Part shown: positions 902 through 17,639 of the stretch, piece after piece
How the letters are laid out: every line of letters begins with the position of its first letter
How positions within the stretch are numbered: the first letter of the stretch is position 1
Virus record (IMG/VR): IMGVR_UViG_3300027659_000246
Coordinates: 1-21,490 of that record
DNA: 21,490 nt
DNA from: a virus
Reading direction: 5' to 3' (one strand)
The notes under the pieces: generated by a model
Databases searched by the model: none
What the model saw: only the letters and a program-made list of their open reading frames with translations
What the model was told of the DNA's origin: nothing
Translations under genes and position numbers: made by a program

Positions 902-3900
902 TTAATCTCTGTCTTGTCTAAAACTTGAAAAGTCGCTTAATCCACCACTTAAACTCAAAGAATCTGGTGCAACATATATAGATTCTTCTCTCCAACCTGG
1001 TTGATATACAGGCTCTTCAGGAGTCGTAGAATTTATTGGAACGGCGACGCCTGTCCAATTAGTTAACATTGTAGTTGGCGCCACAGCTGTTACACTGATA
1101 TTTACTTCAGTTGTAGTTGTTGGTTCTGTTGCAGTAGGTAGATTTGAAAAATCAGGAACTGTTATAGTTCTGGTTACCACTGCTGGGAAATCAGATCCCA
1201 CTAAAATATAATCATTATACAACAAATTATTATAGTTATTAGCACCTAATTGATAGACCAAATCTTGATCGATTGCAGGATTCAATGGAGGTGGAGTTTG
1301 AGGTAGTTCAAATCTTCTTCCATATGAATCTGTAATGGCAGGTTGATGTTCAATTGAATAGAAGTAATCGCTCTCTGGTGTTAAAGTAGCAAATCCTTCA
1401 AACTTGGCTATAATTGCTGTTTGAACTACAGAATTTCCAGTGTTTGAATAATTTCCTTGAGAGACAACTGGTGTTTCATTATAATTTAATGTAATAAATT
1501 TATCACGAATTTTGACATCAGATGTATTTACAGTTGAAAGTGAAAATACATTTGGTATTTTAATCGCAGATAATAACCCATTTTCAATAGATGATTTAAA
1601 ATCATTATTAACATCAACAACAGAAAGATCAACAAATTCATCAACAACCATTCCATAGATTGGTTTATTGATTGTTGGAGTTTCTGGCGACTTTGGTGGA
1701 TCAGCAATGGTATCATTTTCGAGTTTACGCAACTCAATATCTTTTTCAACTAATGCCAATCGTTCATCGATTTTTGATATATCTCTCATAGTATATCTTC
1801 TATTTTCGAGATATTCTAAATCAACTGACTGCAACGTTGCGGTATAAGCTGGGATTTTCAACTTATAAATTGTCATTGCATTTTCGTCAACAAATGGTTC
1901 TTGTGGATTTAATGAAGGAACACCGCTAATTAATTTAAATTCTTTTTCTTTTGTTGCAATGACTTTATCTATTCTAGGCAAATAGTATTCGAAATCTAAT
2001 TCAAACGGCGAATCAGGTTTGTGTAAGAAACTGCTTTGTAGAACAATGCTTGGCGTGACGACTGATATTGTTCCATTTGTGCAAGAAGTTGCGAATGCAG
2101 AGGAAACAGAAATCGTCGTGGCATTAATGACAGAGTTTACAGTCTTTTGCTCTCCATTAACTCTAATGATGGTTCCTTCTTTGATTGGAGGATTTAGTGC
2201 GTTAGAAGTTAATGATGTATTTGCAACAATTAAAACACTATTGACTGCAGTGTTAACTTTAGCTGATAGGTTAGTTAACACATATGGATTTGCGTCAACG
2301 CCAGATGTTCTGACTGGTCTAAAGTCAATCGAATCGCGAAGGTTATACAATTCGCCAGAAGAACTCTTATAAATTGGAATTTGTTCTGATTCATACAATG
2401 TATTATTATATGACTTACCAGAGATATACCCACCAGGGCTCGTGCTGTGCGTAAAGTAATCTAGGAACACTACAGTTTGTCCACTAGGTGGCTGTGATCC
2501 TGGCTTTAAAATTATTGAAGCGTGATCGTAATATCCATCTTTTTGACCACTATCAAATGTATATCGATCAGTAACATCAATTTTATTGCTTACGTTAGGA
2601 GCGTGAGAAACGTTTCCAGAATCGTAAATCTTATTAATTCGAATTACATCAGATAAAAACAATGGTTGTTTTTCGCCTGGAATTTTATTTACAACATTAG
2701 CACTAGTGTGCCAAACTATTCCGTTTGAAGAATTAATCTTAACTTCACTAAATCCATTTACAGAGGTCGCAGATGCTAACGTATCAAATGCAGTAATTGC
2801 AGCATTCGATTCAATTAGCGTTTTACTTCTGCTTGCTGCTGTATTTGCATTGGTGATTTTAGTTGTTAAATATACATCACCAGTAAATGTTGAGCCTGAA
2901 CCACCATTTGTATACAATACTATTTCTGACGCGCTAGTTCTATATACACTTCTAGCACCTTCAGTCATATCTAATATTTTGCCAACATTTGCACCAGAAG
3001 ATGCAACAACAATAATATTTTTATTGATAGCTGAATCAGATAATGTGCTTCCATTAGTTCCAAAATCAAATGTTTGTCCTGATGCTAGAGAAACTGTAAG
3101 TGCACCATTTCCTGTAAAAGATTGCTCTCTTAGAACTAATCTTCTATAAAACTCAACATTAACATCGCTGGAACGTTTAATATAATAATTTGGTAGCGGA
3201 TACACCATAATATCATATGATGAATCTTCAATAAATGTATTTCCTAGTGTAGTTTTACTTCCAACAGAAACATTAGACTGTAGGTTTGCTGCGCTGAAGG
3301 ATGTAGTATTAGCAACCACTAATGATTTTGTTGAACTCAATGGCATTGTCAAAACAAATCTATCTGAATCAACGACCGAGGTCTTGAATGCAGGAGAAAT
3401 ATATGCTACTTTAGCAGTTCCGTCGTAGGAAACAATTTTAGCTGTATTCCCAACAGAACCAGATGTGTCTATTAATGTAATTGTTCCATTTTGATACGCA
3501 TTAGCTGTGCTCGAAAAATGCGGCTTGAATTTAACAGCTGTTGTATTTGATGAGCCATTTGCGCTGCTGATAATTGGATCAAAATTTACATCCGTCAAAT
3601 AAGTGTAGAATACTTGATCGCTTCCAACTCTATCGATATTTCTAATTTTAGCTGTTCCAATTCTGGTAGAGAAATACTTCTCGCTTGTTCCAGAAAGATT
3701 AACCTCATTATTGGAGACGCAATGAACATCAACAGTCGTGAGACCATCAGAAATAACAATACCATTAGCACCGCCGAACACATTAGCAAGTTGTATTCTA
3801 TTGCCATAATAAACACTCAAATTATAATCTAAATGCGATTTTGTTGTTCTGGCTCTTGGTGCAGGAATTTTTGTGGTGCCGATAGTTTCAAATTCGAATC

Positions 3901-4873
3901 CATTTACATATGCTTTTCCTGGTTCGACATTAATAATAAATGTGCTAGTATTTTCAGAAGCTCCAGCAGGAGTATTAGCGGACAGATTAATTCTAAATGG
4001 TCTTACTGCATAATTTCCTGACTCATCATATGTTCTGCGCGCAAAAGTTTTTTCTAATTCTGAATAAATTGGATAACTTACTTGTTTTGTTATAATGCCA
4101 TTTTCAACTCTAAGTAATTCAAAAAATCTACTATCATCCACAGAATCTAATGTTCGTTTGGCTAGATTTAATGCAAATTGATAACGATGTGCTCCTGGTG
4201 CTTGATAATTGAATGCCTCTTGAGCTGGATCTAACAATGCATTATCTACTGATTCAGTCACAATTTCGTCATCGATTTCTAAGCCAATTCTATATGTTGG
4301 CGTGCTGCTGTATGGATCCAAAACAATAGTTTGTTTTGGAACTGTCACGAAAAATCCATCTACATAGAAAACACCATCATTGATAGTTGCAATAGAACCT
4401 ATTCCAGTAAAATTCGAAGCAACAACATTTGCTGAACTGCCACCAGCTGTTGATATAGTTTGCCCACCAGTAAATCCTGATCCACGGAGATATCTGATTA
4501 GCAATGTTCTGTCGGTAGATGAAGAAAACGTTTGAATAACTTTAGCTCGTGTTTTAGGTGAGCCTGTGTTGAAAACTGTTAATCCCAAAAAATCTTCTAG
4601 ATCAATGTCTAGGTTTTGAAATAATTGTTCTAATTTAATGTATTTTACGCCAGTATCTAATGTTAGATGCCCACCTAAAACTGGAGAACCATCTTTAAAA
4701 ATATGGTCTCCAAATAACTTAATTTGATTCTGAATGATCGATTGTATTTGCGTAAGTTCTCTAGCCTGAATTGCAAATCCAGGGCGAAAGAGAATTCGCA
4801 TGTAGTTTTTTTCTAAAGCACCATTAGTTGCTTCAAAATCGTCCCAATATGGGCTTGCATTAAAATCTGGCAT
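902..4873 (-). CDS. DUF4815-type virion structural protein (1323 aa)
   Basis: The N-terminus (residues 1-68) has the features I recall for DUF4815 phage proteins: PDFNASPYWDDF, then NYMRILFRPGFAIQARELTQIQ, then FGDHIFKDGSPVLGG. Near residues 1020-1050 a charged helical stretch, RRYTMRDISKIDERLALVE, is also typical of the family. Between them lie hundreds of residues of Ser/Asn/Thr/Val-rich beta sequence, including a 'GTIIRVNGEQKTVNSV' module near residues 865-930. The C-terminus is rich in Pro and Thr. The gene follows gp8 after 17 bases, with a weak AGG-type ribosome-binding site. Proteins of this family are virion components in marine T4-like phages; their exact place is not established as far as I know. 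Its position after gp8 suggests an outer baseplate part, perhaps replacing the T4 gp9-gp12 set. That placement is inference. Confidence 0.82.
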   Translation of the reverse strand: MPDFNASPYWDDFEATNGALEKNYMRILFRPGFAIQARELTQIQSIIQNQIKLFGDHIFKDGSPVLGGHLTLDTGVKYIKLEQLFQNLDIDLEDFLGLTVFNTGSPKTRAKVIQTFSSSTDRTLLIRYLRGSGFTGGQTISTAGGSSANVVASNFTGIGSIATINDGVFYVDGFFVTVPKQTIVLDPYSSTPTYRIGLEIDDEIVTESVDNALLDPAQEAFNYQAPGAHRYQFALNLAKRTLDSVDDSRFFELLRVENGIITKQVSYPIYSELEKTFARRTYDESGNYAVRPFRINLSANTPAGASENTSTFIINVEPGKAYVNGFEFETIGTTKIPAPRARTTKSHLDYNLSVYYGNRIQLANVFGGANGIVISDGLTTVDVHCVSNNEVNLSGTSEKYFSTRIGTAKIRNIDRVGSDQVFYTYLTDVNFDPIISSANGSSNTTAVKFKPHFSSTANAYQNGTITLIDTSGSVGNTAKIVSYDGTAKVAYISPAFKTSVVDSDRFVLTMPLSSTKSLVVANTTSFSAANLQSNVSVGSKTTLGNTFIEDSSYDIMVYPLPNYYIKRSSDVNVEFYRRLVLREQSFTGNGALTVSLASGQTFDFGTNGSTLSDSAINKNIIVVASSGANVGKILDMTEGARSVYRTSASEIVLYTNGGSGSTFTGDVYLTTKITNANTAASRSKTLIESNAAITAFDTLASATSVNGFSEVKINSSNGIVWHTSANVVNKIPGEKQPLFLSDVIRINKIYDSGNVSHAPNVSNKIDVTDRYTFDSGQKDGYYDHASIILKPGSQPPSGQTVVFLDYFTHSTSPGGYISGKSYNNTLYESEQIPIYKSSSGELYNLRDSIDFRPVRTSGVDANPYVLTNLSAKVNTAVNSVLIVANTSLTSNALNPPIKEGTIIRVNGEQKTVNSVINATTISVSSAFATSCTNGTISVVTPSIVLQSSFLHKPDSPFELDFEYYLPRIDKVIATKEKEFKLISGVPSLNPQEPFVDENAMTIYKLKIPAYTATLQSVDLEYLENRRYTMRDISKIDERLALVEKDIELRKLENDTIADPPKSPETPTINKPIYGMVVDEFVDLSVVDVNNDFKSSIENGLLSAIKIPNVFSLSTVNTSDVKIRDKFITLNYNETPVVSQGNYSNTGNSVVQTAIIAKFEGFATLTPESDYFYSIEHQPAITDSYGRRFELPQTPPPLNPAIDQDLVYQLGANNYNNLLYNDYILVGSDFPAVVTRTITVPDFSNLPTATEPTTTTEVNISVTAVAPTTMLTNWTGVAVPINSTTPEEPVYQPGWREESIYVAPDSLSLSGGLSDFSSFRQDRD

Positions 4874-4890
4874 TAAAGTTACCTATAACG

Positions 4891-6519
4891 TTAAAATTCT
4901 ATAACTAATTTTACAGTTTCTGTTTGCTCTGTAGATCTATAGATTGGAGCTCGATTTTCCACATAAAACATTTCGCCTGAAAATATATTTATATCTGGTT
5001 TTGCAACCGAGTATATTGTGGATGTTATAGATGGAAAATCTTTTTGTGTGATTTGTTCTGACAAAATAGCATCAACGTTACCGCTTATATTGTTTAGATA
5101 CAGTATATTGTCCGTGTTATTAAAGTGCACCACCCTGGCTTTAAATATTGCATTGTCATAACTGTTGCCAACGTAAACTTCCGAATTCTCAGAAAAATCT
5201 GATCCACTGGCAGGAGTTGATGTATACACAAGAGTATACATTGGTAGATATGTTTGAGTCGCAAATACACCATTGCTTGCGTATTTCGGATCTTTCACAA
5301 TGCTTATTTGACGAATAGAATCTTCATCAGTATTTACAATAGGATAATTTCCCTCTAAATCGCCCTCAAAGTCCAAACTAATCATTCTATATGATGCGCC
5401 TAATTCTCTAGCCACACTTGAACCATGTCCATATTGTGGGCTCACCACCACTCTAAACGATGCTTCTTCTCCGATAGTAGTCTGAAGTGGGTCATCAACA
5501 GTAAATGTAGCAGTTGTGTAATTATTGCCACCATTTACAATATTAACATCGTTGATAACACCCGAGGCAACATCTACAGTAACATTCGCGCTGGTTCCAT
5601 CTCCAGTAATTGTGCCAATTGCGTAATTGTTAACAGATCCACCTGCATAGTAGCCAGTGCCACCAGATAATATTCTAACGATATCTATTCTACCGTTTCG
5701 CGTATTGTCAAATACAATTGACTCTTCAACCACAGGCATAAATTTGTTTGTAAAGAATTTATTTTTTAAACCAGAAGTAATCGTATACATATACTTCCAC
5801 TTATAACCATCGCCTGTTTCGATAAATGGATTTTCTGGCAACTGACCACCAATAGTTATTTCTGGCATAATGGTAGATTGACCGTTAGCATTATTATCCA
5901 AACATTTAAACACCTGATCGTATGTGTTTCTTACATAAAATTTATTGTAATATTGAACATCAGAAGTTGATACTTTAAATAAGTTAGCAGAAGTATATGC
6001 TGAAGAAAAATTAGTATTAACATATAAGAAAGAACCATTCGGTGTGATAAAATGGATTTCTTTAGTTTCTTCTCCAATTCTAATAAGTCCACCAACTGTT
6101 AAATTTGCAGAAACAGAAGAAAGATTAATTCCATTTGCAAATACAGTATTAGATGAACTTACATTTACGTTGCCACCTGAAATTTGAGTTGCGACGTTTT
6201 TAGTAAAAACATTAAGAGTTTGATCATATGCCGCATAAATTGTTGTATTAGCCCAATCGACGCGAGGAATAACAGGATGGATGTCATTATCTGTTAATCG
6301 CTTCATTATAACGCCGTCGCGCGACACTTTATATCGATAATCCGTAGTGTCATTCGGTTTTTCTATGGTAACGTCATCTAATAAATTTGTGTTAGAAACG
6401 TTTGGCCAAGGAACAGTGCGCGAAAGCATAACATATACGTTTGCCAATGGCAATGATATCATTTGAGAAAAATTTTTTGCGTTTGTTACGCCGAAGTCTT
6501 TATAGATTAATGATGGCAT
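4891..6519 (-). CDS. 8: Baseplate wedge protein gp8
   Basis: gp8 is a wedge component that binds gp7 and gp10 in T4. The protein has 542 residues against 334 in T4. Segments matching T4 gp8 as I recall it, in order: SRTVPWPN (about 33-40; T4 GRSEPWS), VIPRVDWANT (83-92; T4 VIPRRDWGDT), ETGDGYKWKYMYTI (234-247; T4 EPGDGYVWEYLFEI), SIRQISIVKDP (401-411; T4 GFRQISIITNP), and the end FSGEMFYVENRAPIYRSTEQTE (513-534; T4 HSGEMIYMENRPPI...DQTE). The extra length is mainly two beta-rich insertions, at residues about 109-190 and 283-355, each related to insertions in neighbouring baseplate genes. It starts 3 bases after the stop of gp7. The ordered matches at both ends make this call firm. Confidence 0.93.
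   Translation of the reverse strand: MPSLIYKDFGVTNAKNFSQMISLPLANVYVMLSRTVPWPNVSNTNLLDDVTIEKPNDTTDYRYKVSRDGVIMKRLTDNDIHPVIPRVDWANTTIYAAYDQTLNVFTKNVATQISGGNVNVSSSNTVFANGINLSSVSANLTVGGLIRIGEETKEIHFITPNGSFLYVNTNFSSAYTSANLFKVSTSDVQYYNKFYVRNTYDQVFKCLDNNANGQSTIMPEITIGGQLPENPFIETGDGYKWKYMYTITSGLKNKFFTNKFMPVVEESIVFDNTRNGRIDIVRILSGGTGYYAGGSVNNYAIGTITGDGTSANVTVDVASGVINDVNIVNGGNNYTTATFTVDDPLQTTIGEEASFRVVVSPQYGHGSSVARELGASYRMISLDFEGDLEGNYPIVNTDEDSIRQISIVKDPKYASNGVFATQTYLPMYTLVYTSTPASGSDFSENSEVYVGNSYDNAIFKARVVHFNNTDNILYLNNISGNVDAILSEQITQKDFPSITSTIYSVAKPDINIFSGEMFYVENRAPIYRSTEQTETVKLVIEF
4986..4993 (-). promoter_or_regulatory. Possible internal T4-type late promoter (TATAAATA)
   Basis: On the minus strand this reads TATAAATA, the T4 late -10 sequence. 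It lies in the gp8 coding region about 113 bases upstream of the DUF4815 start, correctly oriented to feed that gene and those after it. In DNA this AT-rich a few such octamers are expected by chance, so only the position supports it. Confidence 0.25.
5455..5673 (-). repeat. GG-x-GY module inserted in gp8
   Basis: It encodes residues about 283-355 of gp8. It runs ILSGGTGYYAGG, then an Asn/Ala/Val stretch with GTITGDGTSANVTVDV, then NGGNNYTTATFTV. The pattern G-G-x-G-Y ... G-x-G-x-x-A-x ... G-I-x-x-(V/I)-x-(I/L)-x-N-x-G-x-x-Y recurs in gp7 and in gp6. T4 gp8 as I recall it has no equivalent. Confidence 0.6.
5950..6195 (-). repeat. NANGINL-type module inserted in gp8
   Basis: It encodes residues about 109-190 of gp8: GGNVNV, then NTVFANGINL, then LIRIGEETKEIHFI, then NGSFLYVNTNFSS and LFKVS. 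The closest relative is in gp7 at 9304-9537, with a weaker one in the 666-residue protein at 13507-13749. The gp8 and gp7 copies share an identical 16-base string, attaattccatttgca (6124-6139 and 9472-9487, plus-strand reading), so the similarity reaches DNA level. Confidence 0.65.
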
Positions 6520-6522
6520 TTT

Positions 6523-9500
6523 TTATCCATTAGTGCTAATAATTTTATATTCTACAACATTCAAACGTGGGTTTCTTAAATACATAACATTTGCATTTGA
6601 AAATCCGACAGAATTATTAAGAATAATTTGCGTATTTGAAACATCAGAAAGAAGATATCGATCATAAATTGTTCCGCTAATATTGAAAGAAATATTATCT
6701 CCAGCTTCTAAACTTTCGCTACCAACATAAGAATTAGCAAACAACGTTACATTAGCGTTTCCGCCGCTCGAGTTTGCGATAATTCTTAACCTTCCGTCAC
6801 CAGGACCACCGATTGGACTCTCAAGCCAAACAATATTTGCATTAACAACATTAGCAACAACTCTAGTATATTGCTTAAGAGTTGCAGTTTCAGTGCTATT
6901 TATTAGTAATAAATCACCAACATTAACAGTAGATGTAAAGTTAGCATTGTTACCGTATACAACGTTGCTTGCATAACTAGTATTAATGTTTGATCCTATT
7001 AATGTATTTGATATGTGTATATTTGAAGTAATTTTGATACTTTCATTTAAATCGTTTTTAATTAAAAACTTAGATAATAATTGAGTTCCGACAGGATGTA
7101 TAATTTTATTGATAGTTTCTTTATAATTATACAATGATTTCTCTGAACCTATCTCGTATGAGAAATTATGATAATAATCATCATTTTGAATTCGTTTGTC
7201 TGAACTTGGGAATCCATCAGTGTTCAAATAGAATCCAGTATATTTGATTAATCCTCTTAAAAATTCTGCATTCGCTTTTGCTAATCCATTACCATAATAA
7301 TGAGGATATGCTCTTTCTACAGCATCGTTTATATCATTAAATGAAACCGTTGCATTTGCTGTAAATAAGTTTACAGTTAAATTGCCAGACGAAGTCGCTA
7401 AATTTACTGGCAGTGACGTATTCAATAATCCACTGTATCCAAAGACACGAATAACTGAATTTTGTGAATCTGGTCTATACACATCATCAATAACGCCTGT
7501 GAATGTGGCATCAACATTTGTTGCGCCTCCTTGCCAAACTGTCTCACCAGAAACAACTATAGTTCCTGCAGGAAGATTATCAGTTAAGATATCTACAACT
7601 TTTAACGATACTACTGGAGTTTGTTCGTAATCTAGCCCACGACTTATTATTCTAAAGTCTTGAATTCTGCCTATATCATCTGTTTCTGCAGTTATAATTT
7701 CTCCATCGCTCAATCCATACAGGATAAAATCAGCATTAGAGCCAGCAGATACATTCGAACCATTAGCATTTAAAATTCTAATGGTTGGCATTTCATAATA
7801 CCCTTCACCACGATTATCTAGATTTATTCCTGTAATAGAACCATTTGCGTCTACTGTTATGGTAGCATTCGCGTTACATCCAGTGCCAATAAAATCTACT
7901 GAATCGGTGCTTGAATATCCACTACCGCCTCTATTAATAATTATCTTACCAATTTTACCAGTTCCGCGAACATTTGGTCTATAATCCAATATTAATTGGA
8001 AATTTAAAATATTTACAGCAGAAATATTATTGGCAAAAGCTCTATCTAGATATAGCGTTTTAACATTAGAGCTAGTATTTGCGTTAGTTACGACGTAGTC
8101 AATAACTTTAGAATAGTGAGAAGTTGTTCCAACATCTAAGAATAATCTTGTTCCAGTATAAAATCCATTTGCTAAACTATATGATGAATTGGAAGAGCTT
8201 AAACGAATAGATGGCGGTGTTCCAGTTTTATTGTAATTCGAAAATTGCCCTGATGGAATCAACATCAACCCTTCATCTGTTGCATAATCTGAATCATGAA
8301 ACGATTCAACATCAAACGTTGGAGGTTCTTCAAAAAATGATCCACCATTTAATAGAGTTAGTTGACGAATCGACCCAAGTAATAGCGATTCATATGTAAA
8401 TGCTGTTCCTATTTGAGTTTGCGCATTCGCAATCAAAAGAACATTGCTAGTTGCATTTGGCGATACAGCCAAGGCAGTTGATAAAGTTGCTATTTTGCTC
8501 ACACCATTATACGAAGCAATAGTAGCCGCATTCGGGCTATTAGCAGCACCTGTTCCACTTGTTATTTTTAATACCAATGTATTATAGTAGTTATTTGCAG
8601 AACTTGCTGTAAATGTTGCTGTATTTAAATTAACAGCTGTTGTAGTATTTCCAGGATTAGTTATTAATCCGACTCTAGCAGACGCATTGTCAAAATCATA
8701 TCCATTTTCGTTGTTTAATGTAATATCTCTTTTATACACAATTGAATCTGTATTGAATTGAATTGTGTTAGAGTTAGATGCATCTTCCCATATTCTAGAT
8801 ACAACAACGTTTGCGCCAATACCTGTATTGGAAAAAATTCTAACTTGAGAATTAGGTGTTGCTCTGAAAAGATATCCACCAGAATTAACTGTCAAAGATT
8901 GAATTGCACCAGTTGAAACATTGTTAACAACTGCTATGGCTTTTTGTGCATCAGGTGTGTCAGCAAGACCACCGAAAAATACTACAGGATCACCAGTTTT
9001 ATATTTTCGACCAGTTTGAACTATTCCAGATCTATTTCTGAACAACGTTAAATTTGAAATTAAAGATGCAATTTTAGATTTAAATGTTCTAGAAACACCC
9101 TCTGCATCTTCATATTGAACAATTAAATTTTCACCTTCATTAAACAATCTAGTAACATTTGAAACATATAGTTCGACTATTTCTCTACCAGTTGTTTTGT
9201 CAACTGTTTGAACAGCCTTTTCTATAATACAAGTTGTTCTAGAAATTTCTCCAATACCTTGTCTGCGCTCTAAAAGAGTTACATTAAAATTAGAATATTC
9301 GCTTAAAGTTACTCTGTATAACTTTTGTGTATTATATGTTTGTGCATTAGATGTATTGGCGAATGGTATTTCTACTCTTAAAAAATTACCAACAGAATTA
9401 ACACTGGTTACCTTTCGTTTTTCTAATCCAATTTGGATATATGAATTAGCTGTAATTCCTGCTGATACTAAATTAATTCCATTTGCATTAACTGTGTTAG

Positions 9501-9981
9501 CAGTAACAGCAAATACGTTTACATTTCCGCCAGTAACTAAAGTTAGTTTATCAGAAAAAATTAATCTTAATGCTTGAGGTAATTTCCACTTACCATCAGA
9601 TGCTTTAATAATATCTTCTTTTGGAAAATATACATCAATATCTTGATTATAGAGAACACTAAACAAAAATTTAAAAGAATCTGGCGTTCCTTTTTTAGCA
9701 TAAAAATCACGCGCAGCTTTTATAATTTTTTCTTTACTTAACGCAGTTTCTTCTGGAAAATTTGGTATAATCCGCTCTTTAAAATATTTTAAAAGATCAG
9801 ATCTAGTAGAGTCAACATCAATAAAATCGTATAATTTTTTATTTACATCTAATACTTTACCTGAACGTTCTAGATATTCATAGTATTTTTTTAATAAACT
9901 GACAAATTTAGGGTGATCTGCTCTTACGAAATCTGGTAATTGTGTTTCTACAATTGCGGATGTAAAGTTATTTGCAAACAT
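6523..9981 (-). CDS. 7: Baseplate wedge protein gp7-like, heavily expanded
   Basis: The 1152-residue protein starts in a TAATG overlap with gp6. In T4, gp7 (1032 residues) is a long wedge protein that joins gp8, gp10 and gp53. Two parts match the C-terminal third of T4 gp7 as I recall it. Residues about 26-118 run FVSLLKKYYEYL ... RDFYAKKGTPDSFKFLFSVLYNQDIDV (T4 ...YDFYSTKGIEASYKFLFKVLYNEEVEI). Residues about 936-975 run YYHNF ... YKETINKIIHPVGTQLLSKF (T4 ...WKSDVIRFVHPVGFGF). Between them are about 820 residues of Asn/Ser/Thr-rich beta sequence with a NANGIN module (149-226) and several GG-x-GY units (366-396, 683-737, 777-795). After residue 985 there is a further beta-rich tail. Nothing matches the long N-terminal region of T4 gp7. 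The call rests on the two conserved segments and on the order gp25-gp6-gp7-gp8, which is that of T4. Confidence 0.85.
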   Translation of the reverse strand: MFANNFTSAIVETQLPDFVRADHPKFVSLLKKYYEYLERSGKVLDVNKKLYDFIDVDSTRSDLLKYFKERIIPNFPEETALSKEKIIKAARDFYAKKGTPDSFKFLFSVLYNQDIDVYFPKEDIIKASDGKWKLPQALRLIFSDKLTLVTGGNVNVFAVTANTVNANGINLVSAGITANSYIQIGLEKRKVTSVNSVGNFLRVEIPFANTSNAQTYNTQKLYRVTLSEYSNFNVTLLERRQGIGEISRTTCIIEKAVQTVDKTTGREIVELYVSNVTRLFNEGENLIVQYEDAEGVSRTFKSKIASLISNLTLFRNRSGIVQTGRKYKTGDPVVFFGGLADTPDAQKAIAVVNNVSTGAIQSLTVNSGGYLFRATPNSQVRIFSNTGIGANVVVSRIWEDASNSNTIQFNTDSIVYKRDITLNNENGYDFDNASARVGLITNPGNTTTAVNLNTATFTASSANNYYNTLVLKITSGTGAANSPNAATIASYNGVSKIATLSTALAVSPNATSNVLLIANAQTQIGTAFTYESLLLGSIRQLTLLNGGSFFEEPPTFDVESFHDSDYATDEGLMLIPSGQFSNYNKTGTPPSIRLSSSNSSYSLANGFYTGTRLFLDVGTTSHYSKVIDYVVTNANTSSNVKTLYLDRAFANNISAVNILNFQLILDYRPNVRGTGKIGKIIINRGGSGYSSTDSVDFIGTGCNANATITVDANGSITGINLDNRGEGYYEMPTIRILNANGSNVSAGSNADFILYGLSDGEIITAETDDIGRIQDFRIISRGLDYEQTPVVSLKVVDILTDNLPAGTIVVSGETVWQGGATNVDATFTGVIDDVYRPDSQNSVIRVFGYSGLLNTSLPVNLATSSGNLTVNLFTANATVSFNDINDAVERAYPHYYGNGLAKANAEFLRGLIKYTGFYLNTDGFPSSDKRIQNDDYYHNFSYEIGSEKSLYNYKETINKIIHPVGTQLLSKFLIKNDLNESIKITSNIHISNTLIGSNINTSYASNVVYGNNANFTSTVNVGDLLLINSTETATLKQYTRVVANVVNANIVWLESPIGGPGDGRLRIIANSSGGNANVTLFANSYVGSESLEAGDNISFNISGTIYDRYLLSDVSNTQIILNNSVGFSNANVMYLRNPRLNVVEYKIISTNG
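7771..7935 (-). repeat. GG-x-GY tandem units in gp7
   Basis: This encodes residues about 683-737: NRGGSGYSSTDSVDFIGTG, then NATITVDANGSITGINL, then NRGEGYYEMPTIRI. It is the clearest full copy of the module also found in gp8 and gp6. A partial unit follows at about residues 777-795 (ISRGLDYEQTPVVSL). Confidence 0.65.
8794..8886 (-). repeat. Single GG-x-GY unit in gp7
   Basis: It encodes residues about 366-396: VNSGGYLFRATPNSQVRI, then SNTGIGANVVVSRI. It follows the same GY ... P ... V-R-I ... G-x-G-A pattern as the other copies, at lower similarity. Confidence 0.45.
9304..9537 (-). repeat. NANGINL-type module inserted in gp7
   Basis: It encodes residues about 149-226 of gp7: GGNVNV, NTVNANGINL, YIQIGLEKRKVTSVNSVGNF, LRVEIPFANTS, KLYRVT. 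It lies directly after the N-terminal conserved block of gp7 and aligns by eye along its full length with the gp8 module at 5950-6195. Confidence 0.65.
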
Positions 9982-12053
9982 TAATCTAGAGGCGTCATAG
10001 TTATGTTAATTGAGCCCAAACTTTCATCATCAATAGTTAAAATTCTGCTTCTAGCAGATTCAAAACTAGTTTTTGCTGGTTTGGCGTTGAATCTTAAAAT
10101 TTTAAGCGGATCTTCGATGCTAGTTGGATCAAATTGCCTTAAAGTTATCTTACCCAACAAATAATCAACAACACCTGCTTCTGGATTTAATATCGTTTTG
10201 ATGTTATTGTCGTCAAAGAAGAAACTACGAATAACACCATATCGACCTTGAATTGCTGTTGTTAATGAAACAGTAGTATCTAATTCGTCTTCATAATATA
10301 TGTTAGCCGCTGCAGTTCTGTAATTGACACCTGGATTGTCAACAATAATTTGTGTTATTTTTCCATTAACAATTATAGGGTATGCATTTGCACCAACACC
10401 ATCTCCTGAGATAACGATAGTTGGAGCAGTCAAATAGTCTGTTCTTGGAGCAGTAACAATTCTAACTGCCTCAACACCTGAAGATGTGCCTGGAACTTCT
10501 TCGAAGAAACAACTACGAACAACCCCTTCATTGTCAAATTGTTTAAATGCTGGCGTTGAACTTATTTTGAATTTTGGATCTTCTCTACTCAATTCAGTTC
10601 CGTAATCAAGTGTGTAGTTTCTTGCTGCGCCTATCTGCGGAATTAATCGTTTTTCTATAACAACTTCTGCATCACTATAGTTGATAGATGCATCTGCGTC
10701 GTCGATATTTCTTAATAATCTAGACAGTTTAAATTTGCTATTAAAATTATCTAATTGTTTATCTCTAAAATCCACCACAGAATTTCTAATAATTGTTTTT
10801 AAATCATCTGTTGATCTATTGGTCTTAGATTTAGTATAAAATACTTCTATAAACAATCTTATATAATTATAATCCACATCAACGAATTCTGGGATTACTG
10901 TAACGACACAAATTGGTTTAATAACATTATTAATAACATTTAATTTTTCTGATTCTGTAATCTCAAACCCAATTGATGGTTTTGCGGCAACGAATACCTT
11001 ACCATAAATTGGCGGATCATTATCTTCGCCGCCCCAAACATTAACAGCTTCGAAGTATGGATATTTTTGATTTATAATACCAATAATATCATCTTTCGTC
11101 ACACCTCTGTTGTTTGAGATATATGCTTTAGGTGCACTAAATCTAATTCTATCTATAGGTTCGCGATCTGAACCACCAGAGGCAGCTTTTACTGGAAATA
11201 TAATGCTATTTGTAAATCCACCGACTGAATCTATTAATGAGAATGCATTGACTTTATTTGCAGCAGCACCGTCTGTTTTGATGTATGTTACGATAACAAT
11301 GTTACCGTTTACTAATTTTTTACCTATAACATCGTCACCAAAATATATTTTATACTTACCATCTTTTGATTCGTCTAGATAATATACGTTTGAGGTTGAG
11401 GTTACTTCAGTCGCATCAGTTGCAAGTATATAATTTTCTTTTCTTAAACTTGTCGCGGAATCTTGCACAAACACTTGTATTGATGATACATCAATTCCAG
11501 CATCTGGCAATTCAAATGACTGTGTTATATTAGAAGCTGCATCATATGTAAAAGAATATGTCAACGGTTGACCTTGGTAGATGAATAAATCCCCAAAACA
11601 AAAACGATCACAAGTAGAATCATATTCTGCTACCTTAGATGTTAAATTTACAAATGTAAATGAGACTCCGTTGAATGGAGCTGATTGAAATCTAGAAAAT
11701 TTTGGTAGAGTTAGTGTAGTTTGCGTATTTCCAGATGGTCTAGAAATTTGCAAATTAACAGTCGCACGAGAACCAACTGTAGAACCAGGAGTATATCCCA
11801 GCATTTTTGCATGGGAGACCACAGAATTTCTTAAAACTGCAGTATCCAAAAACATTTCATTAGCAATCATATTATTATAAAAAGACATATAGTGCGTGTT
11901 ATACGCAAGTATGTCTAAAAGCACACTCATGCCAGATGCTTCGAAATCGAAATCTGAAAATTCTTGTTGATCGCGTAAAAAATTCTTTAAATTATTTTTA
12001 ATGCCATCAAAATCTAATTCTGTGACAATTAGTTTTTGGTCTGTATTTGCCAT
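9981..12053 (-). CDS. 6: Baseplate wedge protein gp6
   Basis: gp6 forms the inner ring that holds the six wedges together; its family is related to gpJ of phage P2. At 690 residues it is close to T4 gp6 (660). The N-terminus matches T4: FDGIKNNLKNFLRDQQEFSDFDFEASGMSVLLDILAYNTHY (about 15-55; T4 ...IKQNLIEWLNGQNEFLDYDFEGSRLNVLCDLLAYNT), then LRNSVVSHAKMLGYTP (74-89). Further on are YYLDESKDGKYKIYFGD (224-240), SGGSDREPIDRIRF (292-305) and YGKVFVAAKPSIGFEIT (350-366). The C-terminal part (about 529-588) carries a GY-type module with APTIVISGDGVGANAY and GKITQIIV. It starts in a TAATG overlap with gp25 and ends in one with gp7, so the three are probably translationally coupled. Confidence 0.94.
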   Translation of the reverse strand: MANTDQKLIVTELDFDGIKNNLKNFLRDQQEFSDFDFEASGMSVLLDILAYNTHYMSFYNNMIANEMFLDTAVLRNSVVSHAKMLGYTPGSTVGSRATVNLQISRPSGNTQTTLTLPKFSRFQSAPFNGVSFTFVNLTSKVAEYDSTCDRFCFGDLFIYQGQPLTYSFTYDAASNITQSFELPDAGIDVSSIQVFVQDSATSLRKENYILATDATEVTSTSNVYYLDESKDGKYKIYFGDDVIGKKLVNGNIVIVTYIKTDGAAANKVNAFSLIDSVGGFTNSIIFPVKAASGGSDREPIDRIRFSAPKAYISNNRGVTKDDIIGIINQKYPYFEAVNVWGGEDNDPPIYGKVFVAAKPSIGFEITESEKLNVINNVIKPICVVTVIPEFVDVDYNYIRLFIEVFYTKSKTNRSTDDLKTIIRNSVVDFRDKQLDNFNSKFKLSRLLRNIDDADASINYSDAEVVIEKRLIPQIGAARNYTLDYGTELSREDPKFKISSTPAFKQFDNEGVVRSCFFEEVPGTSSGVEAVRIVTAPRTDYLTAPTIVISGDGVGANAYPIIVNGKITQIIVDNPGVNYRTAAANIYYEDELDTTVSLTTAIQGRYGVIRSFFFDDNNIKTILNPEAGVVDYLLGKITLRQFDPTSIEDPLKILRFNAKPAKTSFESARSRILTIDDESLGSINITMTPLD
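10290..10469 (-). repeat. GY-type module in gp6 C-terminus
   Basis: It encodes residues about 529-588: VRIVTAPRTDYLTAPTIVIS, then GDGVGANAYPIIVNGKITQI, then IVDNPGVNYRTAAANIYY. It has the same arrangement as the gp7 and gp8 units: aromatic Y, then P-x-V/I, G-x-G-x-x-A, G-x-I-x-x-I, then G-x-x-Y. Confidence 0.55.
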
Positions 12054-12445
12054 TAACGGACCTTCTCTAAGAAAAAGTTAATTGTAATTGGTGATTCTAG
12101 GTTATTTATGAAAAATCTAAGAGTAATGTCATATCGTTGTTGTTCTGGATTAGCCTGAACTTGAACCGCATCAACGCCAACGCGAGGCTCAAAATTCTTA
12201 ATGGAATCCTCAATCTCAGATTGAATTATGTTTGCAGTAATAAACGAAACATCTTCAAACAGCAATGACCTAATTCTAGATCCGAATGCAGGTTGAAATG
12301 GTTTTTCACCGACATTGGTTAGCATTAAATTTCTAAGCGCACCGATGATTGAAGAATTGCCTATTCTCTTAACCACATCTTTTGTGACTGGATGAACGCT
12401 GAAATTTAAGTCTAAGTCTTTATATGTTCTGGTTTCAATCGCCAT
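12053..12445 (-). CDS. 25: Baseplate wedge protein gp25
   Basis: gp25 (132 residues in T4; 130 here) is the conserved wedge protein at which sheath assembly starts, the counterpart of TssE in type VI secretion. The visible family motifs are KPFQPAFGSRIRSLLFEDV (about 48-66; usual form PWxPxFGxxIxxLLFE) and the EPR motif in NFEPRVGVDAVQV (about 88-100). The protein ends IRFFINN-type: ITLRFFINNLESPITINFFLEKVR. The start ATG lies 20 bases after the stop of the 666-residue gene, with an AAGG element at moderate spacing. The next gene, gp6, starts in a TAATG overlap. The older 'lysozyme' label of this family is historical; no catalytic motif is visible. Confidence 0.95.
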   Translation of the reverse strand: MAIETRTYKDLDLNFSVHPVTKDVVKRIGNSSIIGALRNLMLTNVGEKPFQPAFGSRIRSLLFEDVSFITANIIQSEIEDSIKNFEPRVGVDAVQVQANPEQQRYDITLRFFINNLESPITINFFLEKVR

Positions 12446-12465: not shown

Positions 12466-14466
12466 TTAGCAAGGTTTTGCGCATGGATCTTCTGGGATTA
12501 CAACATCTGGATTTTGATCGTCAATTCCACCACCGATTACATCGCCACCAGCTGGATTTCCATCTTGTCTTGGGAACGGACCAGATATACTATCTAATTC
12601 GTCGAATAAATTATTTGCAGAAGGAATATTGGTGTCAATATCTGGGCTATTAGGAGTGTTTAGATTAGGATCATTGTATTCACGATCGAAATCATCTAAT
12701 ATGTCAATAAAATCGCTGGTTGTCGCGTCGCACCCTTGTCTTTCTGGATTAGGCTGCAAAATTAAATCCAAATAATCGTCGGAATCAGTTGCATTTCCGC
12801 CTTGGTCTTTACGTTTTTTCTTAGAACAAGACATTGAGAATAACTTAATCATTCCCTTTACTAAACTTTTAACTTGATTAATTACAGCAAGATCTTGCTC
12901 ATAGATATTCTTCGCATCATTTTTAATTGCTGTTAGTCTGTTTATAGATCCATTAATTGCAATAACAACGTCAGTGTTGCTCAAGGATCTCAAAGCATCA
13001 TCTCTTAAATCATATTTCATTTGAGTCAATGCATTTTTAGCTCTTCTCAACAACTCTTCTTCGAGTAATGACTGGGCAGCATCTGTTGGTTTAGATGCAT
13101 TAACGCTCTGATATGCTCCATTAGCTCTTCTAACTTTAACAGTAAGACCATTTAATAATGTTGTGTCGCCCATTATTTGCCCAGGCAAAGTAAATGCGGT
13201 AATTATGCCATCTGGGTCAACCAAATCTTCTGTCAAATCAAGATACGGAACTTCATTTGTTATTTTAAAGATTGGCATTCTTTCAGTGTATCTTAAAGAA
13301 TCGTCCACAGTTATAGAAGTATTAGTGACAGAAACTACATTGTATTCTTTATTATCATAATAAATTTTATTATTTGCTTCTAAGACGCTTGTAAATGTCG
13401 TTCCAACTCCAGTAATTACATTATCTAAACACAGTGAATTAGCCACAAATGGAGTCTTGACTGATATCAATCTTTCATTTGTAAATGTGAACGCTGTATT
13501 GACATTAAATGAACTTTCTTTTAACAAAATTGTATTTGATACGGAGTTATTAAATGGTAAATATACTGTTAGATAATCTCCAAGCGAATTAATGGTATTA
13601 ATTTGACGAACTTCACCATTTACTGAGATAAACATTCCAGAACTGAGTAAAATATTTCCAGTTTCGTATCCCCCTATTCCACCATTAACCGAAAGATTAC
13701 AACTTGTTAAATTTAATGTAGATACAGAAGCTGTGGTGACTTTAACATTATTTGTTGTTGTGTCTATAGAAACTGTTCCATGGAAAGTTGGAGTAAACTT
13801 TTTACTTATGACTGTTCGTTCTTCTGTATCGACTACTATTACATCTCCTATATTTACAATAGGATAAACTCTATTGCTTAAATTTGGATACACCACATTT
13901 GAAGAAATAATATGAACTGAAGAATTTTGAATAGTGACATTACCGTAAATTCTTTGAAATTCAAACTTTACTGTGGCGCCTCCTAATCCTGAAAGACTAT
14001 CTGTGTGCTGCTCCATAGTTCTAAACGTAGAAGCAAAAGAATCTTCTGCCGCTGCCAACGAAGATAGTTCTCCAATACTAAATGGTCCAAGTTTGTAGTT
14101 CGTATTTGCCGAAAATTCCACTACCTTGCCAAGTCTATCTAATAATTCTGTTCTAGCGCTTACAATGCTTGGTGCAGTATTACTGAATAAACCTGGCAAT
14201 GCAGCCTGAAGCCCAGCATAATTATTTGCTGTTAAAGAGTCTAAATCAGCATTTAAATCATTAAATCTAGTTGCTAGTGGATTTAAAAAATCCTTTGCGA
14301 ATAAATTTCTAACAGCATCTGATACTCTTTGCGCGTCTCTTTTAATGCCTGCAAGAAATTGCCCCAGCGTAGTGTTTGCAAACATTCCACCCAATTTCGC
14401 GAATGGAATGGGCTTCCCTGTAAACATAATTGCCAAGGTCTGAAGAAGCGGTAATCCTCCGATCAA
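12466..14466 (-). CDS. Unassigned structural protein between gp5 and gp25 (666 aa)
   Basis: I do not recognise this protein. As called it starts at a TTG (14464-14466); the first ATG is codon 14 (14427). The in-frame sequence upstream is open back to 14517 and looks protein-like (RVFLGKIIGKIIKIILC), so the true N-terminus is uncertain. Residues 1-30 are hydrophobic. Residues 30-160 look helical and Ala-rich, with repeated Leu. Residues about 170-400 are Val/Asn/Thr-rich beta sequence with at least one NANGIN-related module (about 240-320) and a GVGTTFTSVLEANNKIYYD unit (353-371). Residues 460-545 are probably coiled coil or helical, ending SMSCSKKKRKDQGG. The last 110 residues are acidic, rich in Pro, Asn and Asp, and end DPCAKPC. 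Its place between the hub (gp27/gp5) and wedge (gp25/gp6) genes argues for a virion protein near the baseplate centre; the function is unknown. Confidence 0.75.
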   Translation of the reverse strand: MIGGLPLLQTLAIMFTGKPIPFAKLGGMFANTTLGQFLAGIKRDAQRVSDAVRNLFAKDFLNPLATRFNDLNADLDSLTANNYAGLQAALPGLFSNTAPSIVSARTELLDRLGKVVEFSANTNYKLGPFSIGELSSLAAAEDSFASTFRTMEQHTDSLSGLGGATVKFEFQRIYGNVTIQNSSVHIISSNVVYPNLSNRVYPIVNIGDVIVVDTEERTVISKKFTPTFHGTVSIDTTTNNVKVTTASVSTLNLTSCNLSVNGGIGGYETGNILLSSGMFISVNGEVRQINTINSLGDYLTVYLPFNNSVSNTILLKESSFNVNTAFTFTNERLISVKTPFVANSLCLDNVITGVGTTFTSVLEANNKIYYDNKEYNVVSVTNTSITVDDSLRYTERMPIFKITNEVPYLDLTEDLVDPDGIITAFTLPGQIMGDTTLLNGLTVKVRRANGAYQSVNASKPTDAAQSLLEEELLRRAKNALTQMKYDLRDDALRSLSNTDVVIAINGSINRLTAIKNDAKNIYEQDLAVINQVKSLVKGMIKLFSMSCSKKKRKDQGGNATDSDDYLDLILQPNPERQGCDATTSDFIDILDDFDREYNDPNLNTPNSPDIDTNIPSANNLFDELDSISGPFPRQDGNPAGGDVIGGGIDDQNPDVVIPEDPCAKPC
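13507..13749 (-). repeat. Diverged NANGIN-type module in the 666-aa protein
   Basis: It encodes residues about 240-320: NVKVTTASVSTLNL, then GMFISVNGEVRQIN, then TINSLGDYLTVYLPFNNSVS. The string I-(S/Q)-(V/I)-x-x-E-x-R-x-(I/V)-x-x-(I/V)-N-S-(L/V)-G-(D/N)-(Y/F)-L-x-V-x-(L/I)-P-F-x-N matches the gp7 module at 9304-9537. Confidence 0.5.
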
Positions 14467-14700: not shown

Positions 14701-16284
14701 TCAAGTTTCGGCAGCTTTATATGCGCTAGTGTCTGGCTCAGGGTCTCTCGTATTGGATGATTCCTCAAATCCAGTAACATTGATTAAATTATCATTGTCT
14801 TGTTTCAATTCATTTTTAGGTAGAGTTACATCTACCTTAACTGATTTCGTTGCTTCCTCAATCACTGCAAGCAATTCGGCGCCAGTTTCAGTAGGTAATG
14901 TTTTCTTTTTTCCAGTAACTGTCACTGGTTCTAGAACATCAGTCCCTTCTCGATCTTTTGCTAATTTTGAGAATACATCAGTTTTTGGCGGCTGAGCTGC
15001 AGGAGCAACCTTTGCTAAATCCGCTCCAGCCTTCATATCTGGACCACTAGCAAACGAAGCAGTTGGACCAACTTTACCAACTGCTGGTATATTGGAATTT
15101 AAATCTTGAATTCCAGCAGTCAATAACAATTGTGTGATTAATTCAATAACGCTACTTTCAATGTGAGTCATAGCTCCACCAACAGAAGTCACGCCAGAAC
15201 TTTTAAGAACTGTTTGGAATCCACCATAAATTTTAGCGGCATTTGCTGCAGCAATATTTACATCTGCGCCACTTAAATGAGCCAGTAGCCCCGCGAGATG
15301 AAGACCACCAGCTGCCTTTATTTTTGTGTCGCTGGAAGAAGCCATTTGAATTTTGTCGGCAGAAATTAATTCCAAACCACCACACTCTATTCTTAACTTA
15401 CCATTTACACGCAAATACATGTCTGAGTCAACAGTTTCATATTTTTCACCATTAACATAACTTCTGTGGTCGCCCATCGTTACATCATAGCGACTCTTTT
15501 GTGATTTAATTTTTGTATGCCCTTCTGGTAAAAATTCCAAAGTTGATCCAGTTCTGTGAGATAACTGAACTCTTTCATATCCTTCTGTGTCATCCATCTC
15601 AAAGGCATGACCAGACTCAGTTTCAGTCACATTATTAAATGGATACATGGCATTGTAAGATGGGTATGGCTCATCCCACGTTACACCTCTAGCTGTTTGG
15701 ATGTCGGGGATTCTTGTTTTTCTTTGTATATCAATGCTTGTATTTGCAATAGAACTTGGTTCTATTCCTTGATAAGCACCATTCGCAGTTGATCTATTTG
15801 GTCTAGCCAACCTTGAGACTGTAGGCTCATCTAATACAGAAGGATTTCTTTTTGCTGTATCATTAACAACATTAATTCCTCTGCTGTCTCTCTTTACGCT
15901 AAATTCTTTTATTTTTCTGGGAAAATCTTGAGCAGCTTTTTCAGCATCTGTGTATGGGTCTGTAAATCCTGCATTATTCTGGCGAATCTCTACTGGAATT
16001 CCAGGAACAGTTCCAATTATAATAGGATATTCCCCATGAGAACCATCTGCGAAAAATCCAAATACCATTGTTCCTTCTGCTGGCGCTTGCACAGACTTAA
16101 CTCCATATGGAACAATTGGATGCGCCCATGGAAGTTTATCTATTGGCAATTGATTAATATCGTCAGAATGCCAACCAAAACATCTTATTTGGCATCTTCC
16201 TAATTCTAGTGGGTCTAATCGATTTTCGACTACACCAAACCACCAAACAAAATTGTTTAATCCTAGAAAATCGTTGTTGTTCAT
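14701..16284 (-). CDS. 5: gp5-like baseplate hub/spike protein, no lysozyme domain
   Basis: T4 gp5 is the membrane-piercing spike: an N-terminal OB fold, a lysozyme domain and a C-terminal triple beta-helix. This 527-residue protein has the OB part (about 12-100): FVWWFGVVENRLDPLELGRCQIR (T4 WFVGVVEDRMDPLKLGRVRVR), then LPWAHPIVP, and EGTMVFGFFADG. It also has the segment just before the helix (about 209-260): SYNAMYPFNNVTETESGHAFEMDDTEGYERVQLSHRTGS (T4 YPYVHTMETESGHIQEFDDTPGQERYRLVHPTGT). Between them are only about 110 low-complexity residues with no lysozyme-like sequence or Glu/Asp/Thr catalytic layout. The beta-helix is short (VNGEKYETV, LRVNGKLRIEC) and is followed by an Ala/Gly-rich region and a charged, disordered tail containing LEPVTVTGKKK. 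It starts in an ATGA overlap with the gp27-like gene. Confidence 0.88.
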   Translation of the reverse strand: MNNNDFLGLNNFVWWFGVVENRLDPLELGRCQIRCFGWHSDDINQLPIDKLPWAHPIVPYGVKSVQAPAEGTMVFGFFADGSHGEYPIIIGTVPGIPVEIRQNNAGFTDPYTDAEKAAQDFPRKIKEFSVKRDSRGINVVNDTAKRNPSVLDEPTVSRLARPNRSTANGAYQGIEPSSIANTSIDIQRKTRIPDIQTARGVTWDEPYPSYNAMYPFNNVTETESGHAFEMDDTEGYERVQLSHRTGSTLEFLPEGHTKIKSQKSRYDVTMGDHRSYVNGEKYETVDSDMYLRVNGKLRIECGGLELISADKIQMASSSDTKIKAAGGLHLAGLLAHLSGADVNIAAANAAKIYGGFQTVLKSSGVTSVGGAMTHIESSVIELITQLLLTAGIQDLNSNIPAVGKVGPTASFASGPDMKAGADLAKVAPAAQPPKTDVFSKLAKDREGTDVLEPVTVTGKKKTLPTETGAELLAVIEEATKSVKVDVTLPKNELKQDNDNLINVTGFEESSNTRDPEPDTSAYKAAET

Positions 16285-17639
16285 TGTTTTTGCGCTAATT
16301 TATATTGTTGATTTTCTGCTGATAAATCTAATGGAGAAGAAACTGAGTTCTTAGATAACTCTAATTCAGTTTGTAATGAACCAGGAGTTATGACATGACG
16401 AACTGCTGTAATTAAATATTTACCAGAATAATATGGATCATTTACTCTTTCATTTTGAAAATTTGATGTAAATGCTGGGATAGTAAAATCAATCGTGTAT
16501 CCAGCAGAATACTGAGGATTCCCTGGAACAATACAATGTATCTCTGTGTTGTTTATTAAATCTATCTGCATCATTCTTTGTGCTAATGTTTCTTCCACAT
16601 GAGTATCTCTAGATCGTATGCCTTTTGACACAAAATAATTTGAATTAGTTCTGCCTTTATTTGTTAACCAATACTTCATGTTAGAATCATACTCTTGAAA
16701 CAATGTTTTATTATTTCTATTTGTTGCATTATTAAATGGAAAATATCCATCGATCATAACATCAGCATTTAATTCGTTTAGAAGTGAAACATTGTGTTTT
16801 GTATATTTTTGTGTTATCAAATCTAATGTGTGAAGTTTACAAGAATAAGTTCCATTTTTTACATTTTTATTCACGTCAAAACATTTGTTAAATTTAAATG
16901 TATTAACGTCAGTAGAATTTATAAATGGAGATTCATCTAACTCAGAAGTAAATTTTGCAGTATTATACTTTACAGATGCGACCACGTCTTTTCTATATAA
17001 CGTTTCTAACGACAGTAAGTTAAATCCATCTTTATTTTCAAAAAATAAAAATGGAGACAAAGATTGACTGAAGGATTGAGAGGCAAGATATTCAATTGCT
17101 TCTAGAGGTTTTTGATTTGTTATTGCAAATTCATTACAGCCAAAAGAATTTTCAAAATCTGCTATTTTATTCACTCTCGTTTTTAAATCAAATAAACAAA
17201 TATTAAAAATATAATCAGAAGCATTTCCTCCTGATAATGATCTTGAGATAAGTTGTTGATTTGAAAAAATTTGTTCTTCAGAACAAAAATGTAACACATA
17301 AGTTTGATCTTGGCTGTTTGGAACTTTTTGACGATCTGTCACTTTAAATATTCTAAACGTTTTGGAGTATCGTTGGTCTCTTAAAGTTTCTCCAGGTCGA
17401 CCAAATGTGATATACAAATACTCATTACCATGAATAGCAAGATCCATAAACATACCAACACCATCTCTGATGTTAATTGTTCCCGTGATTACAGGTTTAA
17501 ATATATCTTCAAAAATATTAATAGCATTGAATAATCGTTCTTTATCTAAATCTCTGATTTTGCCATTAGAGCCTATTAACTTTAACTCTAGTATGACAAT
17601 ATCACGAGAAGAATTAATTTTATCTACTGAATCAACCAT
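16281..17639 (-). CDS. 27: gp27-like baseplate hub protein
   Basis: The protein has 452 residues (T4 gp27 has 391). Its N-terminal part has KERLFNAINIFEDIFKPVITGTINIRDGVGMFMDLAIHGNEYLYITFGRPG (about 38-88), the beta-barrel pattern of the gp27/gpD hub family, in which an early strand is followed by a 'G-N-E-x-(I/L)-x-I' segment. Later come FLFFENKDGFNLLSLETL (about 206-223) and, near the C-terminus, GYTIDFTIPAFTS and YSGKYLITAVRHVITPG, matching the family's 'G..I.F..P' and 'GkYlIt.V.H....' strands. In T4 three gp27 copies form the torus that carries the gp5 spike. Here it overlaps gp53 by 8 bases upstream and the gp5-like gene by 4 downstream, which fits that partnership. Primary-sequence similarity to T4 gp27 itself is weak, so the call rests on pattern and position. 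Confidence 0.8.
   Translation of the reverse strand: MVDSVDKINSSRDIVILELKLIGSNGKIRDLDKERLFNAINIFEDIFKPVITGTINIRDGVGMFMDLAIHGNEYLYITFGRPGETLRDQRYSKTFRIFKVTDRQKVPNSQDQTYVLHFCSEEQIFSNQQLISRSLSGGNASDYIFNICLFDLKTRVNKIADFENSFGCNEFAITNQKPLEAIEYLASQSFSQSLSPFLFFENKDGFNLLSLETLYRKDVVASVKYNTAKFTSELDESPFINSTDVNTFKFNKCFDVNKNVKNGTYSCKLHTLDLITQKYTKHNVSLLNELNADVMIDGYFPFNNATNRNNKTLFQEYDSNMKYWLTNKGRTNSNYFVSKGIRSRDTHVEETLAQRMMQIDLINNTEIHCIVPGNPQYSAGYTIDFTIPAFTSNFQNERVNDPYYSGKYLITAVRHVITPGSLQTELELSKNSVSSPLDLSAENQQYKLAQKQ

Follow-up and report, generated by a model that had tools for sequence, protein, structure and literature searches.

Four proteins of the T4-like baseplate gene cluster in IMG/VR virus record IMGVR_UViG_3300027659_000246 (a 21,490-base stretch, here called the window, from a phage known from its sequence alone) carry what sequence comparison identifies as one homologous module of about 60–75 residues. 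The four are the wedge subunits gp8 and gp7, a 666-residue protein (p666) and a DUF4815/VrlC-like protein; at least seven copies of this small, predicted beta-barrel module were found across them. The reading we favour, at a probability of about 0.6, is that the module passively decorates the outer baseplate and makes contacts there. Rather than a new machine, it seems to be an old and mobile structural element of the tail exterior. Domains of this kind are known, the number of places it occupies is unusual, and it is older than was supposed in the original prediction, which was made from the letters of the window.

A profile of the module was trained on the window together with the best 80 of at least 595 IMG/VR loci with gp8 relatives (600 stretches), which yielded 1087 open-reading frames (ORFs), and was iterated from 16 gp8 copies over six rounds. 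This full profile gave 363 domain matches in 143 proteins from 79 of the 81 sequences, of which 296 reached an independent E-value (iE) below 1e-3 and covered 70% or more of the profile, and reversed and block-shuffled decoys gave no match at E < 1e-3 over the six rounds (best decoy 0.0024). A leave-out profile, trained from seven gp8 copies with the window and its 12 closest relatives excluded, recovered seven window copies at iE < 1e-3 (Table 1). The original prediction had placed the module in gp8, gp7 and p666, with a possible fourth copy in the DUF4815 protein. All four are real, the fourth by the leave-out profile, and the count rises to seven with two further copies in p666 and one strong copy in the C terminus of gp7, where another segment is doubtful.

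gp8 also matched gp7 directly by phmmer (E 6e-11 with 14 window proteins searched). Local alignment scores of module pairs were then compared with those of 1000 composition-preserving shuffles of one partner, a comparison with shuffled sequence that had been proposed along with the original prediction. The gp8 copy and the N-terminal gp7 copy scored 125 against a top shuffled score of 68, and the N-terminal gp7 copy and p666 scored 90, with no shuffle as high for either pair. Results were moderate for gp8 with p666 (score 60; 5/1000 shuffles as high), gp8 with DUF4815 (54; 5/1000) and p666 with DUF4815 (54; 6/1000), and the N-terminal gp7 copy with DUF4815 alone was not significant (38; 224/1000). 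These weak pairwise cases are settled because the leave-out profile finds the DUF4815 and p666 copies. Chance likeness between Asn/Ser/Thr-rich beta sequences without homology, which the one non-significant and three moderate pairs might suggest, is hardly tenable, being contradicted by the strong pairs and by the profile tests, both those run against decoys and those that excluded the clade, the latter reaching iE 6e-6 to 4e-12 in gp8, gp7, p666 and the DUF4815 protein.

A 16-base string shared by gp8 and gp7 (6124–6139 and 9472–9487) had been taken as a sign of copying. The string is present at both places, and no shuffle out of 100 matched it twice, a count to be read with the string having been picked after it was seen. 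The window contains three repeated 16-mers and one 17-mer, and an exact repeat of at least 16 bases was present in 20 of 100 dinucleotide-shuffled windows, so that the string was rejected as stand-alone evidence although the first test alone looked strong. The longest exact direct repeat of the window, at 5331 and 13851, is 17 bases long, and shuffles reached up to 18. Apart from pieces of the window itself, 90 loci were examined and the string was found in none; it is also absent from the gp8 and N-terminal gp7 modules of 12 relatives in the clade, some of which are nearly identical. DNA identity between the gp8 and N-terminal gp7 copies was 62.0% in 13 same-genome pairs compared to 63.5% in between-genome pairs. 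Since the string is missing elsewhere and same-genome copies are no more alike than those of different genomes, recent copying or gene conversion was rejected, and the 16 shared bases lose their value as a sign of it.

The history of the copies was followed on three module trees, of 145, 85 and 62 modules (64–65 columns). The largest left out the modules of 29 of the 81 sequences as well as short matches. The 85-module tree left out four long-branch rows, the third p666 copies and the C-terminal gp7 copies except those from five sequences; on it one third p666 copy (L038) stands wrongly among the middle copies, and its bootstraps had not settled. The smallest tree left out six named rows, the VrlC copies at residue 873 and more of the C-terminal gp7 copies. 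Labels for gene and site required 13 changes on the 145-module tree against a shuffled mean of 66.1, 10 against 52.9 on the 85-module tree and 8 against 42.5 on the 62-module tree; so few changes indicate that the copies were inherited in place. On the 62-module tree, the gp8, N-terminal gp7 and middle p666 copies of the clade form one group (support 97/84), and N-terminal gp7 and p666 copies stand together (98/86) among the gp8 copies. This grouping makes copying among neighbouring genes within the lineage likely, at a time before the clade diverged. The earlier idea of copying between adjacent genes is thus retained as an old event, and DNA identity gives no support to a recent one. Module presence takes two changes on a gp8 tree whose 43 representatives comprise 23 with the module and 20 without. 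Approximately unbiased (AU) tests, in which the groups were chosen after earlier trees had been seen and alignment columns were few, did not reject a single clade, whether for all gp8 copies (p = 0.078) or for those of the window clade (p = 0.12).

Judged by alignment with relatives, the gp8 and N-terminal gp7 modules are clean insertions. The whole gp8 insert comprises residues 108–182 (window 5974–6198; 75 extra residues) and the whole gp7 insert residues 144–226 (window 9304–9552), both bounded by empty sites, which shifts the limits first proposed for gp8 (5950–6195) and extends those for gp7 (9304–9537) while keeping their start. Both sites are empty in four sister phages (L022, L023, L026 and L028), where the gp8 chain is continuous across the site. 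The N-terminal gp7 insert is missing from 10 of 10 aligned gp7 proteins outside the clade (residues 144–226 in most, 157–226 in L016) and present in 3 of 3 inside it. The earlier remark that T4 gp8 has no such insertion agrees with the T4 genome, which gave no module match at E ≤ 0.01. Separately, a neck protein in the record of L054 (L091:963-1916; phrog_211, head-tail adaptor, E 2.8e-41) also bears the module (E 6.2e-16 for that record), and compared to the homologous neck protein of Methylophilales phage Melnitz-3, which is without it, the module is a clean 70-residue extra.

The module is restricted to certain proteins. Among the 81 sequences, 356 of the 363 matches are in gp7 (250), gp8 (53), p666 (31) and VrlC-like (22) ORFs and the other 7 in four unlabelled ORFs, with none in the gp6, gp25, gp5, gp53, p452 and partial ORF 1–888 ORFs (~92,000 residues). 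This fits the decoration of the baseplate exterior that the original prediction had suggested; the module is, however, more widespread than the genes named there, being found in C-terminal gp7 arrays, VrlC of cultured pelagiphages, tail-fibre families and the neck protein. Lineages outside this clade also have C-terminal gp7 copies and VrlC-like copies. The gp7 of L030 has nine module matches and that of L037 seven, some in tandem with borders overlapping by a few residues, as if neighbours shared a strand. The module has also changed faster than the rest of its protein in gp8 (51 vs 60% identity; 30/36 pairs), gp7 (53 vs 62%; 35/36) and the VrlC-like protein (54 vs 60%; 28/36), and no column is nearly invariant in 55 copies. 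These two observations therefore give no sign of an active site, and the pattern fits a structural domain without one.

When modelled with 55 aligned modules, the gp8 copy is predicted to be a small seven-strand beta barrel (mean predicted local distance difference test score, pLDDT, 92.8; predicted template-modelling score, pTM, 0.79). Foldseek alone found no PDB match for it at E ≤ 0.001, returning mainly V- and F-ATPase barrels, unlike a second fold search, in which phage chains ranked first. The F2-pyocin side fibre structure 25ve did not figure among the fold matches listed, an absence from which no conclusion is drawn. Against viral predicted structures, Foldseek gave eight matches at E ≤ 0.001, including an annotated baseplate wedge subunit; many tail fibres fell narrowly short of that level. 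The fold search with p666 (best Z 9.0, which may mean a common arrangement) was headed by 4ru4_B, 6e0v_A, 9n71_A and 8rk3_D, all in the top seven for the gp8 module, with ATPase, Uba1 and riboflavin synthase barrels following. Alignments of ~67 residues within p666 residues 165–408 (window 13243–13974; weak model) span 170–405 and 176–339, a hint that modules might be nested one inside another.

In sequence, the closest solved relative is the F2-pyocin side fibre (PDB 25ve_A, residues 6–70; E 2.7e-4 in a profile search of all PDB sequences); the next rows, Cas9 chains at E 0.023 and worse, were taken as chance. The leave-out profile matched the cut 65-residue F2-pyocin piece at E 1.5e-5 with equal database size. 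This piece and the module consensus both match phrog_1980 (at positions 7–73 and 7–70; consensus E 3.9e-7), phrog_17834 and phrog_28473 (tail fibre) near their N termini, and single modules match phrog_1980 in 9 of 55 cases and phrog_17834 in 6 of 55. No general Pfam or NCBIfam model covers the module, as no family matches more than one of the 55 (27 Pfam families at E ≤ 0.1, 25 of them listed, and 4 NCBIfam at E ≤ 0.01). Searching phages with single modules by tblastn returned nothing at E ≤ 1 for the gp8 copy and one record for an L037 copy; because this method is too insensitive, seven named phage records were searched whole by profile. Four of the seven gave matches, in the HTVC115P structural protein (E 2.0e-17), HTVC008M VrlC (2.4e-9), Mosig VrlC (1.8e-7) and, as two partial matches, S-PM2 (3.8e-5 and 7.7e-5); T4, lambda and P-HM2 gave none. 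No published account of the module was found among titles and abstract openings.

Homology, insertion into gp8 and gp7, the predicted fold of the gp8 copy, an old spread and restriction to certain proteins are computed results, and decoration and contact of the outer baseplate is the function that we would attach to them. One mobile structural domain, a seven-strand barrel able to drop into loops of other proteins, would have been inserted into gp7 in the clade ancestor and shared by gp8 and p666. It would add outer-baseplate surface for contact with adjacent wedge proteins, with fibres or with the cell envelope, by analogy with the domain added to a loop of HDIV in lambda gpJ and the front domain of tail fibres. 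We infer that the modules are surface-exposed in the particle and that p666 and the VrlC-like protein are peripheral. According to the excerpted text of PMC3004832, gp7, gp8 and gp10 are peripheral in T4, and gp6, gp25 and gp53 are central.

Several observations weigh against this reading. In the same excerpt T4 gp8 is located somewhat towards the centre, and VrlC and p666 are not placed. The p666 modules have changed less than the remainder of that protein (56.5 vs 42.7% identity; slower in 27/28 pairs), a pattern more in keeping with a structural core. When the gp8 module of the window is searched by itself, no PHROG matches at E ≤ 0.001. HTVC008M, Mosig and S-PM2 have two matches each and P-HM2 none, so baseplates of this type can do without the module. 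The best Z of the gp8-module model in the VIA fold search, 8.2, is at a level the tool calls common, with ATPase and Uba1 barrels following. Finally, p666 is modelled with low confidence (mean pLDDT 55; strands at 165–408), and its fold alignments span residues 167–415 rather than a single copy, so they are no separate test of the middle copy, whose module fold is supported by sequence.

Of the other functions considered, the foremost, which we regard as unlikely, is docking, in which copies in wedge proteins and at fibre fronts would bind each other or a common partner and so attach fibres and wedges. The closest solved relative is indeed the N-terminal part of a side fibre, the tail-fibre families phrog_1980 and phrog_28473 are matched at positions 7–73 and 14–80, fibre N termini generally bind the tail (excerpt of PMC10684548), and T4 gp8 contacts gp10, gp7 and gp6 (PMC3004832, in part). 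However, the best match of the F2-pyocin piece, the fibre family phrog_2712, holds it internally (382–446 of 700), the matches are concentrated in gp7, gp8, p666 and VrlC-like ORFs as given above, and the only match at E ≤ 0.001 in one record of 178 kb is in its gp8. An enlarged form of docking is likewise unlikely; here the outer baseplate would be studded with fibre-type barrels, spread by repeated insertion (possibly nested in p666) into gp7, gp8, VrlC-like, p666 and neck proteins, a shared like-to-like unit holding wedges and fibres.

Weak binding of glycans or the host envelope, as proposed for phage immunoglobulin-like domains (cited in the excerpted text of PMC10721106), appears improbable. 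Fold-level matches include tailspike enzyme domains (4ru4, 6e0v and 7w1d), and faster change in gp8, gp7 and the VrlC-like protein would suit a host-binding surface; the lack of nearly invariant columns argues against it, as does the lack of a carbohydrate-binding family among the 25 Pfam families listed out of 27 matched. We give still less credence to the module as tolerated filler, spread by recombination without a selected role. Presence and absence do vary among related gp8 and gp7 proteins, but an open frame and the core pattern have been kept over wide divergence (clade copies are on average 51–57% identical), and the gp8 copy is present in 9 of 9 clade representatives on the gp8 tree.

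The host proteins belong to a T4-like baseplate cluster on the minus strand of the window, with genes named by Pfam and PHROG matches (Table 1). Matches to gp8 in 476 phage records are predominantly in cyanophages, with few in pelagi- and methylophages. p666 has no PHROG match at E ≤ 0.1 and no solved relative at E < 0.1. The VrlC-like protein has 1323 residues here and ~2020–2120 in many other loci. The partial ORF at the window edge (1–888) weakly matches positions 1199–1294 (E 1.9e-5) of phrog_358, a family whose first part matches the DUF4815 protein, so VrlC may be two genes in this phage. The excerpted text of PMC7029224 describes T4 gp7 as absent from pelagimyophages and seemingly substituted by VrlC; despite this, the gp7-like family profile resembles part of T4 gp7 (Table 1).

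Table 1 Module copies and genes of the baseplate cluster in the window
Feature	Positions	Strand	Evidence
Module core in gp8 (residues 116–177)	5989–6174	minus	leave-out profile iE 3.4e-10
Module core in gp7, N-terminal copy (residues 152–213)	9343–9528	minus	leave-out profile iE 6.1e-6
Module in gp7, C-terminal copy 1 (residues 998–1060)	6802–6990	minus	leave-out profile iE 4.4e-12 for residues 999–1062
Doubtful module-like segment, gp7 C-terminal copy 2 (residues 1072–1131)	6589–6768	minus	full profile iE 0.0019; leave-out iE 1.3 for residues 1079–1131
Module in p666, first copy, partial (residues 175–221)	13804–13944	minus	leave-out iE 7.9e-5, profile positions 1–40 of 60
Module in p666, middle copy (residues 230–311), the p666 copy of the original prediction	13534–13779	minus	leave-out profile iE 7.6e-4
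Module in p666, third copy (residues 343–394)	13285–13440	minus	leave-out iE 2.1e-9 for residues 349–394
Module in DUF4815/VrlC-like protein (residues 873–933)	2075–2257	minus	leave-out profile iE 3.6e-8
DUF4815/VrlC-like protein	902–4873	minus	PF16075 2e-49; phrog_358 2.3e-195; 1323 residues
gp8 baseplate wedge subunit	4891–6519	minus	PF09215 2.8e-13; phrog_438 8.2e-75; family profile vs T4 gp8 1n7z 9.1e-16
gp7-like baseplate wedge subunit	6523–9981	minus	PF23786 2.4e-7; family profile vs T4 gp7 residues 648–758, E 3.7e-6
gp6	9981–12053	minus	Pfam/PHROG matches
gp25	12053–12445	minus	Pfam/PHROG matches
p666 (666-residue protein)	12466–14466	minus	helices predicted either side of beta region
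gp5	14701–16284	minus	Pfam/PHROG matches
Tail protein	16281–17639	minus	Pfam/PHROG matches
gp53	17632–18315	minus	Pfam/PHROG matches

The module thus represents a domain family, fitted by no Pfam or NCBIfam model, that has been inserted repeatedly in conserved baseplate proteins and once, as seen here, in a neck protein. The clean empty sites in relatives are before-and-after pairs for testing the effect of decoration on the baseplate and, should the modules turn out to be contact units, they would offer an easy way into the diversification of the baseplate exterior.

Among known systems, T4 gp8 and gp7 are homologues of the host proteins by profile similarity, and T4 differs in having no copy of the module. 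The HDIV loop of lambda gpJ holds an extra beta-sandwich (483–569; excerpt of PMC10721106), and an HDIV loop domain is called OB in the available part of PMC11101478; we read the two as the same domain. The likeness to lambda gpJ is that of a small beta domain in a tail-protein loop, insertion in gp8 and gp7 of the window being seen from the empty sites. The fold match (8iyk_F 492–567; Z 6.8, root-mean-square deviation 2.6, 65 aligned) is at Z < 8, below the trusted level of the tool, and no sequence relation was found, as the profile search of the lambda genome at E ≤ 0.01 came back empty. The small barrels of LKA1 gp49 (4ru4), phi92 gp150 (6e0v), JBD30 (8rk3) and Chi (8vjh) are among the best fold matches of the gp8 module (Z 7.3–8.2, which may mean a common arrangement); at 11–24% identity, the relation is at the level of fold only. 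The N-terminal part of the F2-pyocin side fibre, phrog_1980, phrog_28473 and phrog_17834 belong, by profile, to the same sequence family, so the module ties tail-fibre front domains to wedge proteins. These fibres have one copy near the front end (further in for phrog_2712), whereas all seven copies of the window phage lie within the chains of gp8, gp7, p666 and the VrlC-like protein, and in its relatives they also occur in tandem.

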